Of a stretch of 64,000 bases of DNA, positions 9,680 through 62,504 are shown piece by piece (within the stretch, counting starts at the first letter, position 1; each line of letters begins with the position of its first letter). The notes under the pieces were generated by a model. The model was not told the origin of the DNA. It saw nothing but the letters and a program-made list of their open reading frames with translations, and did not search any database. The position numbers were made by a program, and so were the translations under genes. Source of the stretch: Saprospiraceae bacterium (lineage in GTDB: Bacteria > Bacteroidota > Bacteroidia > Chitinophagales > Saprospiraceae); assembly GCA_019187225.1 (NCBI GenBank), contig JABAQQ010000017.1, positions 14,266 through 78,265 on the forward strand, read 5' to 3'.

Positions 9680-10300
9680 ATGTTGAATGACATATTTTTG
9701 TCCAAACAAAACCCGGTTCCTGTGTTCGATTTGTTGCTGAAAAACGTCGCCCGTCACATTCATCTGCAGCCGGATGAAACTGACTTTTTTATTTCATTGC
9801 TTCAGGTTCGCCGTTTAGTGAAAAAAGCATTTTTGCTTCAGGCAGGTGAAGTATGCCGATATGAAACCTTTGTGCTCGAAGGTTGCCTGCGCAATTATTA
9901 CCTCGACGACAACGCAGACGAGCACATACTCCAATTCTCCGTCGAAGATTGGTGGACCTCCGATCTATACAGTTTGTTGACCCAAACCCCTGCCTCACAA
10001 TTCATAGATGCGCTGGAGGATACGACGGTAGCCCAGATCGAGCGGGATAACCTGGAAAGACTTTACCTGGAAGTGCCTCAATTCGAACGGTTTTTCCGCA
10101 TCATGTTTCAGAACGCTTTTATAGCGCAGCAGCGGCGTATTCTGCAAAACATAGGAAGTACCGGCGAAGAACGTTACCTCGCCTTCCGTGAAAAATATCC
10201 CGCACTCGAACGGCGGTTGCCCCAACACCAGATCGCGGCCTACCTGGGCATCACACCCGAGTTTCTGAGTAAAATCCGCGGCAAACTTGCCAAAGGCTGA
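9680..10300 (+). CDS. Crp/Fnr-family transcriptional regulator
   Basis: The 206-residue protein has an N-terminal cyclic-nucleotide-binding-like jelly roll (about 20-140; FLLQAGEVCRYETFVLEGCLRNYYLDDNADEHILQF). This is linked by a long helix to a C-terminal helix-turn-helix (LPQHQIAAYLGITPEFLSKIRGKL). The arrangement is usual for the abundant Bacteroidota Crp-like regulators, whose effectors are mostly unknown. The recognition helix (TPEFLSKIRGK) differs from the RETVSR of classical Crp, so whether it binds the TGTGA-N6-TCACG sites at 58-61 kb is open. It is divergent from the polyprenyl synthase gene. Confidence 0.85.
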   Translation: MLNDIFLSKQNPVPVFDLLLKNVARHIHLQPDETDFFISLLQVRRLVKKAFLLQAGEVCRYETFVLEGCLRNYYLDDNADEHILQFSVEDWWTSDLYSLLTQTPASQFIDALEDTTVAQIERDNLERLYLEVPQFERFFRIMFQNAFIAQQRRILQNIGSTGEERYLAFREKYPALERRLPQHQIAAYLGITPEFLSKIRGKLAKG

Positions 10301-47337: not shown

Positions 47338-48957
47338 TCAATACTGCTTCACCGACGTCACATAGTACATATCCATCTGCCCCTTGTTTTTGGCGGCGAT
47401 CTTGCCCCTGTGCTGCCACTCGAACTCGTATTTGGTCAGCCAATAGGTATCTTCGCTTACGTTGACGCGACCGGGGTCGCAAGCCTCTTCCATGCGGGCT
47501 GCTGTGTTCACCGTATCGCCCCAGATGTCGTAGGCGAATTTTTTGTCGCCCACTACCCCTGCCACTACGGGCCCTGTGTGAATGCCGACACGGGCTTCGA
47601 AGTAAGGCAGTCCCTGGCTTTGGCGTTCGGCCTTGACATGGAGGAGAAAATCCTGAATTTCAAGCGCTGCTTTCACCATATCCGAGGGGCTGGCGTTCAT
47701 ATCGGAAAGGCCGCTGGCGCAGATATAGGCGTCGCCGACGGTTTTGATCTTTTCGATGCGGTATTTGCCGATGATGTTGTCGAAGTTGGAAAAACAGAAA
47801 TCGAGTTCTTCCACGAGCATTTCAGGGCTAAGCCGCTCGGCCACATTGGTAAAGCCGATGAAATCGGTGAACATGACGGTCGCCTGGTCGTATTTACGGG
47901 CGGCGACTTTGTTGCGGGTTTTGAGTTCCTGCGCAATCGCAGGCGGCAGGATGTTGAGCAGGAGATTGTCGCTTCGCTTTTTTTCTTCCTCTATAAGTAT
48001 GTTTTTTTCGGCCAATTCGTTGGCTGCGCGTTTTTTGGCCCGAAAACGAAAGTAGAACAATCCGGCCAGCACCAACACGAAAGCGGCGACCAAAGCGAGG
48101 ATGTTGCGCAGATAATCGCCGCGTTCCTGGGCGAGTTGGGCTTCTGCCAACAGACGTTTCTGTGTTTGAATTTCGCGTTCCTGTTCGGCGAGTACGGCTT
48201 TGGCGACTACCTGCTCTTTGGTCATAAATTCCAGGTTGGAGCCGGTGACACGGGCAATGGAATCGAGTCGTTGTTTTTCCTGGGATATCTGGCTGATGGC
48301 CGCTTCTTTTTGCGTCAACTCCTGTTGCGTTTTGTCCTGCACTTCCTTGAGTTGGGTCTGGTAGGTCGTTTCGAGCACCTGGGTTTGACCCGTGAGTTGG
48401 GCAATTTGTTCGCGCAAGGTACGGTTGTCGGCTTCGGCAGCGGCCAATTGGTTCTCGAGTCTGCGTACGGCATCACCGCCGCTGCGTGCACCGCCGCCCG
48501 ATGTCTTTAGGTAATTGACGGTTTCACGACTCCATTTGAGGGCTTCGCGATAGTCGTTCTGCTTCAGGGCGATGTCCTGCAATTTTTCCGTAGAATTGAG
48601 GGCCACGTCGCGCAGGCCGTAGTTGCGGGCGGAATTCCAGGCATGCTGGTATTCGGTAGAGGCTGCACGATAGTTGCGCGACCGGTAGTACGCTTCGGCG
48701 CCAAGGTAGGCAGCATCGGCTTCACGGCGTTTGTCGCCGATCTCGGTAGCCAGCTGACTCGCCTGCTGGGCATAAGTGGCGGCCTTGGTGGGATTGGAAG
48801 CGAGTAGTTTTTCAGCGATCTGATAAGAAAGCGTCATTTTCTCGTTTTTGGTGCCGGCGCGTTTCAATCGCGCTTCCAGTTCGCTGACAGATTGAGCGGA
48901 AAGCAGTCCGGCGCTGAAAATGACCAGAAGAAAAACAAAGGCGGATTGATGTTTCAT
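47338..48957 (-). CDS. Class III adenylate cyclase with TPR and coiled-coil sensor part
   Basis: The 539-residue protein from MKHQSAFVFLLVIFSAGLLS has a signal anchor. TPR-like helices (about 25-160), a long coiled coil (165-270), a membrane helix (ILALVAAFVLVLAGLFYFRF, about 280-300) and the cyclase domain (330-535) follow. Metal-binding aspartates lie in MFTDFIGFT (about 363) and TVGDAY. The lysine in EKIKTVGD and aspartate in YDIWGDTVN specify ATP, and NTAARM carries the transition-state Asn and Arg. So cAMP synthesis is expected. Confidence 0.9.
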   Translation of the reverse strand: MKHQSAFVFLLVIFSAGLLSAQSVSELEARLKRAGTKNEKMTLSYQIAEKLLASNPTKAATYAQQASQLATEIGDKRREADAAYLGAEAYYRSRNYRAASTEYQHAWNSARNYGLRDVALNSTEKLQDIALKQNDYREALKWSRETVNYLKTSGGGARSGGDAVRRLENQLAAAEADNRTLREQIAQLTGQTQVLETTYQTQLKEVQDKTQQELTQKEAAISQISQEKQRLDSIARVTGSNLEFMTKEQVVAKAVLAEQEREIQTQKRLLAEAQLAQERGDYLRNILALVAAFVLVLAGLFYFRFRAKKRAANELAEKNILIEEEKKRSDNLLLNILPPAIAQELKTRNKVAARKYDQATVMFTDFIGFTNVAERLSPEMLVEELDFCFSNFDNIIGKYRIEKIKTVGDAYICASGLSDMNASPSDMVKAALEIQDFLLHVKAERQSQGLPYFEARVGIHTGPVVAGVVGDKKFAYDIWGDTVNTAARMEEACDPGRVNVSEDTYWLTKYEFEWQHRGKIAAKNKGQMDMYYVTSVKQY

Positions 48958-58362: not shown

Positions 58363-58378
58363 TGTGACAATTATCACG
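58363..58378 (+). promoter_or_regulatory. Crp/Fnr-type operator of the TauE/SafE gene
   Basis: TGTGACAATTATCACG. A gap of exactly 26 nt leads to TTTGC at 58405-58409 (box CACCTTTG), 39 bp before the start codon. The same arrangement precedes 59398 and 61041. Confidence 0.85.
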
Positions 58379-58447
58379 GAAAAGCGCCTGTTTGTGCCGC
58401 CACCTTTGCAGTATTATTTTTCAATAAAACAAAATAATCAGCAAAAA

Positions 58448-59281
58448 ATGGCAATTGCAGGCTACTTCGCATCGGCACTGATCGGTGTTTCCCTGGGTCT
58501 CATAGGCGGCGGCGGCAGCATCCTGACCGTACCCGTATTGGTTTACCTTTTTGGCGTGGACCCGGTTTTGGCAACCGCATACTCCCTTTTCATCGTCGGC
58601 TCAACCAGCCTCGTCGGAACACTTCCCAAATACCGGGAAGACCTGGTCAATCTGAAAACAGCCGTGATCTTCGGCATTCCTTCCATCCTGGCAGTGTACG
58701 CTACGCGGGCTTATCTCGTACCCCTGATCCCCAATCCCGTTTTTACCATAGGAACCTTCGTCGTATCGAAAGCCATGCTGATGATGGGATTGTTCGCCGT
58801 CCTCATGGTATTCGCTTCCATCTCGATGATCCGCGACAAAAAAGGATCTGCTGCCAGTGATACAACCGGCGCCGAACCGCAAAAATTCAACTATCCGATG
58901 ATTTTGCTGGAAGGTGCGGTAGTGGGAGTGCTTACAGGATTGGTCGGCGCCGGTGGCGGATTCCTGATCATTCCCGCTCTGGTTCTTTTCAGCAAACTTC
59001 CCATGAAACAGGCTGTAGGCACTTCTTTGCTCATCATTGCCGCCAAGTCTTTATTCGGTTTTATGGGCGATCTGTCGCAATACCACCTCGACTGGTTGCT
59101 ATTGGGCAGCGTCACGCTATTGGCCATCGCCGGTATCTTTATCGGCAACCGGCTCAGCCGAAGCATTGACGGCAACAAACTGAAAAAAGCCTTCGGGTGG
59201 TTCGTGCTGATAATGGGCATCTATATCCTGATCAAGGAATTGTACCTGAACCCCGCCGCTGCCGCAGTGGGAGCACATTAA
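58448..59281 (+). CDS. TauE/SafE-family sulfite/sulfur-compound exporter
   Basis: The 277-residue protein from MAIAGYFASALIGVSLGLIG has eight helices in two halves, each opening with a glycine-rich turn (GVSLGLIGGGGSILTVPVL and GVLTGLVGAGGGFLIIPAL). The family moves sulfite, sulfoacetate or similar anions. Its place before a persulfide dioxygenase and YeeE genes argues for export of sulfite produced by that enzyme. It has its own operator and promoter box. Confidence 0.9.
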   Translation: MAIAGYFASALIGVSLGLIGGGGSILTVPVLVYLFGVDPVLATAYSLFIVGSTSLVGTLPKYREDLVNLKTAVIFGIPSILAVYATRAYLVPLIPNPVFTIGTFVVSKAMLMMGLFAVLMVFASISMIRDKKGSAASDTTGAEPQKFNYPMILLEGAVVGVLTGLVGAGGGFLIIPALVLFSKLPMKQAVGTSLLIIAAKSLFGFMGDLSQYHLDWLLLGSVTLLAIAGIFIGNRLSRSIDGNKLKKAFGWFVLIMGIYILIKELYLNPAAAAVGAH

Positions 59282-59305
59282 AAAATTGTTGATATCAACG
59301 CGAAA

Positions 59306-59321
59306 TGTGACTTCTATCACG
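59306..59321 (+). promoter_or_regulatory. Crp/Fnr-type operator of the persulfide dioxygenase gene
   Basis: TGTGACTTCTATCACG, 26 nt, then TTTGC at 59348-59352 (box CATATTTG), 45 bp before the start codon. Confidence 0.88.
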
Positions 59322-59397
59322 AAACGCAACTCCGATATTGCCACATATTTGCAATATCAAAAACAATCCACTAAAACAAAAATAAAATTTCCGAATC

Positions 59398-60807
59398 ATG
59401 TTTTTCCAACAAGTTTATGACAAAAGCCTGGCGCAAGCCAGTTACTTTATCGGCTGTCAAAAAGCAGGCGTCGCCATGGTGATTGATCCCAAGAGAGACG
59501 TAGATACCTACCTTGAGATCGCCCGGCAAAACAATATGACTATTACGCATATAGCTGAGACCCATATCCACGCCGATTTTCTCTCCGGATCGCGCGAGTT
59601 GTCCGCTCTGACCGGCGCACAATTGTATCTCTCCGATGAGGGCGGCCCCGACTGGCAATACGAATTTCCACATGTGGGCTTGCGCGACGGTGACGTCATC
59701 AAACTGGGTAACCTTTCTTTCAAAGTGATGCACACACCGGGTCATACCCCTGAGAGCATCAGCTTTTTGCTGACCGACCACCCGGCTTCCGATAAACCCG
59801 TAATGCTTTTCACCGGCGACTTCGTTTTTGTAGGCGATGTGGGCCGCCCCGATTTGCTGGAAAAAGCCGCCGGCATCAAAGGCACCCAGGATGCGGGCGC
59901 TCACCAAATGTATAAATCCATCCGCCGGTTTGCCGATTTGCCCGATTACATTCAGGTATGGCCAGGTCATGGCGCCGGCTCCGCATGCGGAAAAGCTTTG
60001 GGGGCTGTGCCGAGCTCTACGGTCGGTTATGAAAAGGTAAGGAACTGGGCTTTCCAATATGAAACGGACGAATCCGGTTTCGTACAATACCTGCTGGCCG
60101 ACCAGCCTGAGCCGCCCAAGTACTTTGCCATGATGAAAAAACTCAATAAGGTGGACCGCCCGTTGTTGACCGAGGTGCCGAAAATCAAAAAATTCGGCGC
60201 CGACGAGTTGATTTCCAACCTCCAAAAAGGTATAAAACTCATTGACGCGCGCAACAAAACCGATTTTGCCGCGGGTTTCATTCCTGGTAGTATCAACATC
60301 CAGGGCAACAACTCCTTTGCGACGTGGGCAGGCTGGTTCCTCGATTACAACGAGCCTTTCATATTGGTAGCTTCCGATGCCCAAATCGAAGACCTGACAC
60401 GCAAGCTCATGCGCATCGGCCTGGACAATGTCATCGGCTATGTGAATAATGTGAATGATTGGTCTGTGAAAACCGGCCAGGCGCTCGAAACTGCGAAGAT
60501 TATTGCTCTCGATGAATTTAAGGCACTAAAAGCCGAAAACAACATGCAGGTAGTTGACTTGCGCGGCGCAGCCGAATACAAAACGGGACACATCAGCGGT
60601 GCGGAAAACGTCTTCGTCGGCACCCTCGAAAAAAATCTCGATAAAGTCAGCAAAAACCGGCGCGTAGTCATCCATTGTCAGGGAGGCGACCGGGCTTCCA
60701 TCGCCTATTCCATTCTGAAAAAACACGGCTATGACAACGTGCTCAATTATTCTGCCGGCATGAACGAGTGGGTCAACAAGAGCAATCCGGTCGTTTCCGA
60801 ATCATAA
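59398..60807 (+). CDS. Persulfide dioxygenase (ETHE1-like) fused to two rhodanese domains
   Basis: In this 469-residue protein, residues 1-250 are a metallo-beta-lactamase-fold persulfide dioxygenase: THIHADFLSG (metal histidines), HTPGHTPESISF, FTGDFVFVGDVGRPDL, GHGAGSACGK. It oxidises glutathione persulfide to sulfite. Two rhodanese modules follow (about 265-360 and 375-465). The first lacks the active cysteine (ILVASDAQI), the second has it (VIHCQGGDRAS, Cys about 427), so only the second can carry a persulfide. Flanked by TauE/SafE and YeeE genes. Confidence 0.92.
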   Translation: MFFQQVYDKSLAQASYFIGCQKAGVAMVIDPKRDVDTYLEIARQNNMTITHIAETHIHADFLSGSRELSALTGAQLYLSDEGGPDWQYEFPHVGLRDGDVIKLGNLSFKVMHTPGHTPESISFLLTDHPASDKPVMLFTGDFVFVGDVGRPDLLEKAAGIKGTQDAGAHQMYKSIRRFADLPDYIQVWPGHGAGSACGKALGAVPSSTVGYEKVRNWAFQYETDESGFVQYLLADQPEPPKYFAMMKKLNKVDRPLLTEVPKIKKFGADELISNLQKGIKLIDARNKTDFAAGFIPGSINIQGNNSFATWAGWFLDYNEPFILVASDAQIEDLTRKLMRIGLDNVIGYVNNVNDWSVKTGQALETAKIIALDEFKALKAENNMQVVDLRGAAEYKTGHISGAENVFVGTLEKNLDKVSKNRRVVIHCQGGDRASIAYSILKKHGYDNVLNYSAGMNEWVNKSNPVVSES

Positions 60808-60834
60808 CCGCATAAATAAAATTGTTAACCGAAA

Positions 60835-60870
60835 GGAGGAGGTTGTCAACGGAATGGTTGGCAGCCTTCT
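60835..60870 (+). terminator. Terminator after the persulfide dioxygenase gene
   Basis: GGAGGTTGTCAAC pairs with GTTGGCAGCCTTC (with G-U pairs), followed by TTTTTT. Confidence 0.75.
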
Positions 60871-60974
60871 TTTTTACGTAGGTTACCTTAGAGAACATTG
60901 TCAGGTGTGTGCGACGCTGAAAAATCGTTCGCTTCACATACCATATTGAGCGATATTCCAAAAAATTATCGCAT

Positions 60975-60990
60975 TGTGATAAAAGTCACG
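60975..60990 (+). promoter_or_regulatory. Crp/Fnr-type operator of the YeeE/YedE operon
   Basis: TGTGATAAAAGTCACG, 26 nt, then TTTGC at 61017-61021 (box CATTTTTG), 20 bp before the start codon. Confidence 0.85.
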
Positions 60991-61040
60991 TAATGACAAT
61001 GAGCCGGGTCACCATTTTTGCTGAGAAATATCACTAAAAA

Positions 61041-61601
61041 ATGGAACTACTCTCTCAACCCTGGCCCTGGTGGGCCGCTGGCCTCATCATCGGGCTGACT
61101 GTGCCCGCACTCCTGATCCTGGGCAACAAACACTTCGGCCTGTCGGCCAACCTGCGCCATGCCTGCGCAGCCTGTCTGCCTGCCAACATCAAATTTTTCC
61201 AATACGATTGGAAAAAAGAGATCTGGAATTTCTTTTTCGTAGGTGGCATCATCATCGGCGCCGTTATCGCTTCTACCGTACTGGCCAGCCCGGAACCGGT
61301 AAAAATAGCGCCTGAACTGGCTGCCGAACTGCAAGGGTACGGCATAACGGATTACAGCGGCATGGTGCCTGAGCAGCTGATCTCCTGGGAAAGCCTTTTT
61401 TCATTGCGCGGTTTCATCATACTGGTCATCGGTGGATTGCTTGTCGGTTTCGGTTCGCGCTACGCGGGTGGATGTACCAGCGGCCACGCGATCATGGGCT
61501 TGTCCGATCTGCAAATACCATCGCTGATCGCCACCTGCTGCTTCATGGTTGGGGGTTTTATTATGGCCAACCTGGTGCTTCCGCACATTCTCGCCCTGTA
61601 G
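61041..61601 (+). CDS. YeeE/YedE-family sulfur transporter half, N-terminal type
   Basis: The 186-residue protein has four to five helices (WWAAGLIIGLTVPALLILG, NFFFVGGIIIGAVIASTVL, RGFIILVIGGLLVGFGSRYA, LIATCCFMVGGFIMANLVL). The YeeE/YedE motif GGCTSGHAIMG contains the cysteine that handles thiosulfate in TsuA-type transporters. It forms an operon with the next gene, 66 bp on, which encodes the other half. Confidence 0.9.
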   Translation: MELLSQPWPWWAAGLIIGLTVPALLILGNKHFGLSANLRHACAACLPANIKFFQYDWKKEIWNFFFVGGIIIGAVIASTVLASPEPVKIAPELAAELQGYGITDYSGMVPEQLISWESLFSLRGFIILVIGGLLVGFGSRYAGGCTSGHAIMGLSDLQIPSLIATCCFMVGGFIMANLVLPHILAL

Positions 61602-62249: not shown

Positions 62250-62504
62250 ATGGAGGCTTTTTTGAAGAACTGGCATTTCATGCGTCTGCTGCGGGCGGGG
62301 GTGGCACTCTGGGCTTTTGCCGAAGTGTGGCGTACGGGCGAGTGGCTTATGCTGTTGCCTGGAAGTATTTTTGCGCTGCAGGCCATTTTCGACATCGGAT
62401 GTTGTGGCGCCCCAGGATGTGCTCCACCCATACAGCCCACAAAACCGCACACCCCCGCATCCGGGGATGTAATTGTTGAAGAAGTACGGTCAAAGCAGCA
62501 GTGA
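62250..62504 (+). CDS. Small membrane protein ending the sulfur operon
   Basis: The 84-residue protein has two hydrophobic segments (MRLLRAGVALWAFAEVW and WLMLLPGSIFALQAIFDIG) and the cysteine cluster GCCGAPGCAPP, then a polar tail. Similar short DUF2892-like proteins accompany rhodanese and YeeE genes. Cysteines might bind sulfur or metal; this is inference. It starts 45 bp after the DUF6691 stop. Confidence 0.7.
   Translation: MEAFLKNWHFMRLLRAGVALWAFAEVWRTGEWLMLLPGSIFALQAIFDIGCCGAPGCAPPIQPTKPHTPASGDVIVEEVRSKQQ

Follow-up and report, generated by a model that had tools for sequence, protein, structure and literature searches.

At the class II promoters of CRP in Escherichia coli, the operator is centred at -41.5, and the regulators recognized for sulfur and persulfide genes include CstR, which is of the CsoR type, as well as SqrR and BigR, which are of the ArsR type. 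In other phyla, sulfur and persulfide operons are run by FisR, a sigma-54 activator, and by BigR, according to the passages of PMC7315123 that deal with them, and extracts on sHdrR and SoxR present both as ArsR-type regulators of sulfur operons, again in other phyla. Here we consider a stretch of 64,000 nucleotides from a Saprospiraceae bacterium of the Bacteroidota (assembly GCA_019187225.1, contig JABAQQ010000017.1, positions 14,266 to 78,265), hereafter the window, in which three transcription units for sulfur proteins, namely a TauE/SafE transporter, a persulfide dioxygenase-like protein and a YeeE/YedE-type pair with a small protein, are each preceded by the same palindrome at one distance from a promoter box. 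The initial annotation of the window had proposed that the three units form one Crp/Fnr-type regulon, and the genome-wide and cross-species comparisons described below support it; we thus regard it as likely that the three sites are the operators of one sulfur regulon under a Crp/Fnr-family activator. The sites, their spacing, their conservation, their target genes and their linkage to a regulator family can all be followed from genome to genome by sequence comparison. The targets, that is persulfide dioxygenase, SQR, TauE and YeeE/YedE, overlap with those of FisR, BigR, sHdrR, SoxR, CstR and SqrR, whereas by their Pfam domains the linked regulators are of the Crp/Fnr type, unlike the sigma-54 activator FisR, the ArsR-type BigR and SqrR and the CsoR-type CstR. 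Among the matches listed from the open-licence literature, we found no description of a Crp/Fnr-type regulator of sulfide-oxidation operons in Bacteroidota.

As claimed in the initial annotation, TGTGA-N6-TCACG is present at 58363, 59306 and 60975 with zero mismatches, and the gap of 26 nucleotides between the 16-mer and TTTGC (hereafter N26) can be read directly in all three promoters. All of these elements lie on the forward strand, and the transcription starts given here are inferred from the position of the -7 promoter box relative to the start in the relevant section of PMC9723704. Operator 1, TGTGACAATTATCACG (58363..58378), stands upstream of the TauE/SafE gene by direct reading and is followed at N26 by box 1, CACCTTTG (58401..58408), with a start at about 58413; operator 2, TGTGACTTCTATCACG (59306..59321), an exact match, is followed at N26 by box 2, CATATTTG (59344..59351), with a start at about 59356; and operator 3, TGTGATAAAAGTCACG (60975..60990), again an exact match, is followed at N26 by box 3, CATTTTTG (61013..61020), with a start at about 61025. 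The three 26-nucleotide spacers differ from each other. Without the box, the palindrome is by no means rare, as 10 exact copies of TGTGA-N6-TCACG occur in the 7.18 Mb genome and 8, 14, 13, 9, 9 and 12 copies in six simulated genomes built with the dinucleotide make-up of the window, and with up to 2 mismatches allowed the window shows no excess over its shuffles (41 vs a mean of 49). Once TTTG at N26 is added to the palindrome, in contrast, the genome contains exactly three matches without mismatch, which are the window sites within 2.7 kb, and each of the six simulated genomes contains none. The genome-wide search that had been proposed beforehand therefore returns as exact full matches only the three window sites, all at sulfur genes, and the many unrelated matches of the same spacing that would have spoken against the proposal were not seen. 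The signal is carried by the palindrome and the spacing in combination, the palindrome alone being at the level of chance, for which reason it was dropped as a marker of the regulon; the seven other exact copies of TGTGAN6TCACG in the genome were not taken as members because none has TTTG at N26. With one mismatch the pattern is also matched at window position 47577 (L014) and on contigs C16, C17 and C45, and further matches of the genome search are C22:27926 and C2:333380.

The same architecture is found in related species. In a set of 60 genomes, consisting of the own genome, 36 others of the same genus and 23 others of the order, the exact pattern YGTGAY-N4-RTCACR-N26-TTTG has 99 sites in 30 genomes, which do not amount to 99 independent events as close relatives contribute related sites, while the reversed control pattern has 0 sites across the 60. 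The genomes with the pattern are 29 of the 37 in the genus (own included) and 1 of the 23 others, so that the lack of conservation in relatives, named in advance as a ground for giving up the proposal, is not what we observe. Moreover, at loci L066-L173, which were fetched by protein searches with the dioxygenase or the regulator and for which spacing was not a criterion, the strict palindromes YGTGAYNNNNRTCACR have TTTG at N26 in 39 of 46 distinct cases and at N25 in the other 7; for the smaller set L066-L144, the full offset histogram places TTTG at N26 in 39 of 44 strict palindromes. The profile of the 99 sites shows conservation in the operator and the -7 box and little in the spacer between them, and the box is conserved also at bases outside the search pattern, with A at -11 in 96%, a pyrimidine at -12 in 82%, C at -9 in 72% and a pyrimidine at -4 in 94%. 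The TAnnTTTG box of Flavobacterium psychrophilum spans -12 to -5, as given in the corresponding part of PMC9723704, and on this scale, relative to predicted starts, the operator centre falls at -42.5 for N26 and at -41.5 for N25, with the palindrome of the 99-site profile ending at -35, beside the -33 region. The class II-like layout suggested initially would agree with these predicted centres, and the centre then put near -41 shifts to -42.5. A TTG near -33 was looked for in the profile of the 99 sites and is absent, which is weak evidence here because, in the portions of PMC7366714 on these promoters, the consensus of Bacteroides fragilis also has TTTG near -33 and that of Flavobacterium johnsoniae was found without it.

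Class II activation would call for a distance held constant across a variable spacer, whereas a repressor could do without it, and we infer activation at these promoters. A dimer of the Crp/Fnr family would bind the palindrome about 42 base pairs before the transcription start, would stand in for the -33 element, and could from there contact RNA polymerase at the Bacteroidota -7 box in a class II type of activation. Such promoters would resemble the class II promoters of E. coli CRP in the TGTGA-N6-TCACA type of operator, in the helix residues aligned with Arg180, Glu181 and Arg185, and in an operator at one fixed distance that replaces the upstream promoter element; they differ in having a TAnnTTTG -7 box instead of -10 and -35 elements, in cyclic AMP (cAMP) contact residues that are not conserved, and in their sulfur targets.

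The genes downstream of the sites point in the same direction. When the first downstream open reading frame (ORF) is classed by its best BLAST hit to reference genes, it is a sulfur-gene relative at 69 of the 99 N26 sites, namely a dioxygenase at 34 (some of which are short single rhodanese domains, one having been checked), TauE at 15, YeeE at 11, the rhodanese of contig C5 at 4, a SoxA/TsdA-type cytochrome at 3, SQR at 1 and thioredoxin at 1. One operator is thus shared by several sulfur operons both in the own genome and in relatives, as a sulfur regulon should be, and the regulon looks larger than the three units of the window. In fact the own genome has two more N26 promoters in a second sulfur island on C5, and on C22 an operon of Tll0287-like and DsrE genes with a weaker operator. 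On C12 (L058:3464-5624), TGTGATAAATGTCACA-N26-TTTG lies between a dps-like gene of the ferritin family and an OprD-type porin gene, and N26 sites in relatives are likewise found for a dps gene (G021, G028) and for related porin genes (G006, G017, G021), hinting that iron or oxidative protection may be part of the sulfur regulon. Apart from these, a perfect palindrome, TGTGATAAAAATCACA, is seen at C35:54252 (L059:5283-5298), where its N26 TTTG points away from the adjoining UspA-like operon.

As for the regulator, the initial annotation had noted that no regulator gene adjoins the window cluster, and indeed the best candidate is located on C5, beside a paralogous cluster instead. It had also mentioned the Crp-like gene at 9680, with a different recognition helix, as a candidate; the helix does differ (ITPEFLSKIRG), and with this helix the gene is unlikely to encode the regulator and was ruled out. 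The own genome encodes 16 proteins with a cyclic nucleotide-binding (cNMP-binding) domain, and the only one with an R-E-x-x-S-R recognition helix is a Crp/Fnr protein of 198 amino acids on C5 (L060:7702-8298), the helices having been read by eye and L046, L049 and L050 showing no Crp-type helix in the listed ORF. This motif aligns with Arg180, Glu181 and Arg185 of CRP. The C5 protein belongs to the Crp/Fnr superfamily, with PF00027, PF13545 and PF00325 above cut-off, and the AlphaFold model of its relative L233 (pTM 0.61, 30 sequences) resembles Thermus CAP with a TM score of 0.75, which confirms the fold and says nothing of a binding pocket, as the model is of low confidence in the loop behind the invariant cysteine discussed below. 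The regulator gene adjoins a paralogue of the window cluster, the islands of the window (C10) and of C5 being paralogous, and the C5 island holds a SoxB relative, a SoxA/TsdA-type cytochrome, DsrE, a peroxiredoxin, two dioxygenase paralogues, a YgaP-like gene, TauE, a rhodanese and a YeeE pair. The regulator has two sites of its own, TGTAGCAACTGTTACA and TGTAACAACTGTCACA, each N26 from TTTG. Crp/Fnr genes also adjoin sulfur genes in many relatives. The SoxB relative, the SoxA/TsdA-type cytochrome and the DsrE protein adjoin the regulator island (L060:1-5200), hinting at thiosulfate oxidation.

The association extends over the phylum. GTDB genomes were scanned with the family alignment, by a pattern that required Val or Glu at the helix position, and the following counts refer to the best 80 of 585 loci, which come from isolates and metagenome-assembled genomes labelled mostly Flavobacteria, Cytophagia, Chitinophagaceae or Saprospiraceae and were searched with a relaxed palindrome whose position 4 was left free. 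Sites with TTTG at N25 occur in 53 of these loci, with 69 sites spread over 41 of the 65 Val loci and 21 over 12 of the 15 Glu loci, and in the Val loci the mean at 17 other offsets is 5.8 sites vs the 69 at N25. A sulfur-gene relative follows 51 of the 90 N25 sites (dioxygenase 24, TauE 15, rhodanese 3, YgaP-like 3, YeeE 2, SQR 2, peroxiredoxin 2). At ten control offsets within these loci the figure is 2 of 72 sites; of the other control sites, 6 hit the regulator gene itself, 34 gave no match and 30 lack an ORF. Several of the 32 unmatched N25 genes are SulP permease-like by eye, and one of them was confirmed. The Glu-type regulator of Larkinella, a cultivable relative, has two N25 sites. 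Among the half-sites of Val loci, 116 of 134 carry A at position 4, and among those of Glu loci, 25 of 42 carry G there (Fisher p 1.4e-14 on half-sites); since half-sites within one locus are not independent, the count was redone by locus, and a G is then present in 11 of 12 Glu loci as compared with 3 of the 41 for Val (Fisher p 5e-8). On the tree three changes of the Glu/Val label suffice, and the truly independent switches are therefore few. In CRP, substitutions of Glu181 change the preference at the corresponding base pair. In the N25 operators of L174-L253 the outer 3' base is often T or C rather than A or G, and the operator looks less symmetric outside the own genus.

In CRP, cAMP is contacted by Glu72, Arg82 and Ser83, and FNR has a set of cysteines for a [4Fe-4S] cluster. 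In the regulator family described here one cysteine is shared by all of the aligned members (90 of 90), its column coming just before Glu72 of CRP, and the cAMP contacts are absent from the family, whose consensus is a, k and k at those columns in a profile alignment to 4bh9. CRP proper is ruled out by the missing contacts and by an NCBIfam CRP score of 56 vs the cut-off of 266, and FNR proper by the single cysteine, C67, of the C5 protein. The best match of the family in the PDB is 3dv8 (E 5.6e-36), the structure of the "putative regulator" eubrec_1222 of Eubacterium rectale, from a different phylum; it has a cysteine aligned with the invariant one, and the title of the entry names neither targets nor ligand. 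In view of the target genes, reactive sulfur species would be a plausible signal, and their action on the invariant cysteine is put forward as a tentative proposal. Persulfidation of this cysteine would be a fair guess by analogy with the Crp of Acinetobacter baumannii, which is reported in the pertinent passage of PMC7315123 as highly persulfidated, the effect of the modification being stated there as not known. Like the A. baumannii protein, the regulator described here would then be of the Crp family with a cysteine modified by sulfide-derived sulfur; the A. baumannii protein, however, is by the same passage a close CRP homologue (50% to that of E. coli) with its cysteine opposite the ligand pocket.

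Several observations weigh against a single sulfur regulon controlled in this way by the C5 protein. Ten of the 99 N26 sites precede genes without a sulfur name that recur in the islands (an OprD-type porin 3, a 537-amino-acid protein with a secretion tail 3, the small protein 3, dps 1), and 20 precede other genes, unclear ORFs or no ORF; those checked among the 20 include relatives of CoA-disulfide reductase and SoxB, both below NCBIfam cut-offs, and a DUF983 protein, and the kynurenine-monooxygenase-like and sugar-kinase-like ORFs recognized by eye look like chance sites. The Glu/Val rule has exceptions, as the Glu locus L174 has TGTAAC-type sites only and the Val loci L209, L225 and L231 contain sites with G, and the lone C67 of the C5 protein allows no internal disulfide or polysulfide bridge. 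The two sites of the C5 regulator have left halves TGTAA or TGTAG, and the window operators resemble those beside another regulator, type A (the L101 family), for which no gene was found in the own genome, the best match being 32%. TGTGA-type sites are absent from 3 of the 8 genomes that have the C5 type (type B, at least 59% identity) without type A, yet present in 4 of the 9 that have neither, with five of them in G017. It could thus be that the sites belong to a different Crp/Fnr protein of type A, lost or missing from the assembly, so that they are orphaned or served by an unseen gene. Among the 36 other genomes of the genus, 20 do encode type A, at 68-100% identity; all 20 have sites, and the type A gene is often a neighbour of TauE, dioxygenase, DsrE or porin genes that have N26 sites. 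We consider this rather unlikely, since the assembly is rated 100% complete in 73 contigs, since types A and B share R-E-x-x-S-R, and since 5 of the 8 genomes with type B only (own genome included) have symmetric TGTGA sites. Among these, G007 and G009, whose type B proteins are nearest to that of the own genome (88-89%), have four and three such sites, one in G007 preceding a YeeE gene and one in each preceding a 127-amino-acid relative of the dioxygenase and rhodanese. The symmetric sites in genomes with type B only are what favours type B at the window, and the C5 protein is the most plausible regulator there, an assignment we make with some confidence; sites are also associated with genomes having A or B vs neither (Fisher p 0.012).

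It is still less probable that the operators bind a repressor, which would block RNA polymerase beside or across the -33 region in the way of the ArsR- or CsoR-type proteins at equivalent operons elsewhere. The palindrome does end at -35, beside that region, and in Acinetobacter BigR controls the yeeE-yedE-pdo2 operon and acts as a repressor in its reduced form, as stated in the relevant part of PMC7315123; but a repressor requires no exact spacing, yet the 46 strict palindromes have TTTG only at N26 or N25, the spacer bases are otherwise little conserved, and there is no -33 TTG to let the promoter function alone. That the promoters are alike merely through copying, the fixed spacing reflecting shared ancestry and not function, is very improbable: the C10 and C5 islands are paralogous and closely related genomes contribute sites among the 99 that are not independent, but unrelated genes (dps, porin, SQR and rhodanese) share the spacing, the spacers of the three window promoters differ, and across the 99 sites the spacer is little conserved while the operator and the -7 box are. 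Chance, to which the frequency of the palindrome alone would point, hardly deserves consideration in face of the full pattern, with 0 matches in six simulated genomes and with 99 sites vs 0 for the reversed pattern.

The genes of the three units are all on the forward strand. Unit 1 consists of the TauE/SafE family transporter gene (58448..59281; PF01925), 63% identical to its C5 paralogue. The listed ORF opens at GTG 58364, inside operator 1, but alignment with the paralogue puts the start at ATG 58448, so that operator 1 lies upstream of the gene and not inside it. An automatic annotation from GTG 58364 (58364-58448) could bury the TauE promoter within the gene. Unit 2 encodes the persulfide dioxygenase-like protein (59398..60807) with metallo-beta-lactamase (PF00753) and rhodanese (PF00581) domains, of which orthologues at 70-88% are present in 9 of the 59 other genomes searched (one in two pieces), with fragments in a tenth, G025. 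Unit 3 comprises the two halves of a YeeE/YedE-type sulfur transporter (61041..61601, PF04143; 61668..62204, PF20398 and PF04143) and closes with a small protein of 84 amino acids (62250..62504), which has no match in Pfam or NCBIfam, stays near the YeeE pair in relatives, and has relatives of 60-66% identity in the sulfur islands of L097, L100 and L101.

Altogether, by comparative evidence the regulon appears to be real, with a Crp/Fnr-type family for the sulfur genes of Bacteroidota and a fixed class II-like promoter layout. A wider picture, to which we give somewhat less than even chances, is that a Crp/Fnr subfamily with an invariant cysteine at the cAMP-contact loop of CRP would be a widespread activator of Bacteroidota responding to reactive sulfur, making class II contacts at TAnnTTTG from an operator locked at 25 nucleotides in most of the phylum and at 26 in the own genus, and that its TGTAAC/TGTGAC code would have been switched on more than one occasion through one Val/Glu exchange at the residue corresponding to Glu181 of CRP. 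A Crp/Fnr-type regulator of sulfide-oxidation operons in Bacteroidota would make the sulfur regulon predictable in a phylum whose -7 promoter is unusual and would suggest that activation in the class II style works in Bacteroidota; moreover, it would provide a natural series of Glu and Val helices with matching operators for the rule known from the Glu181 mutants of CRP.

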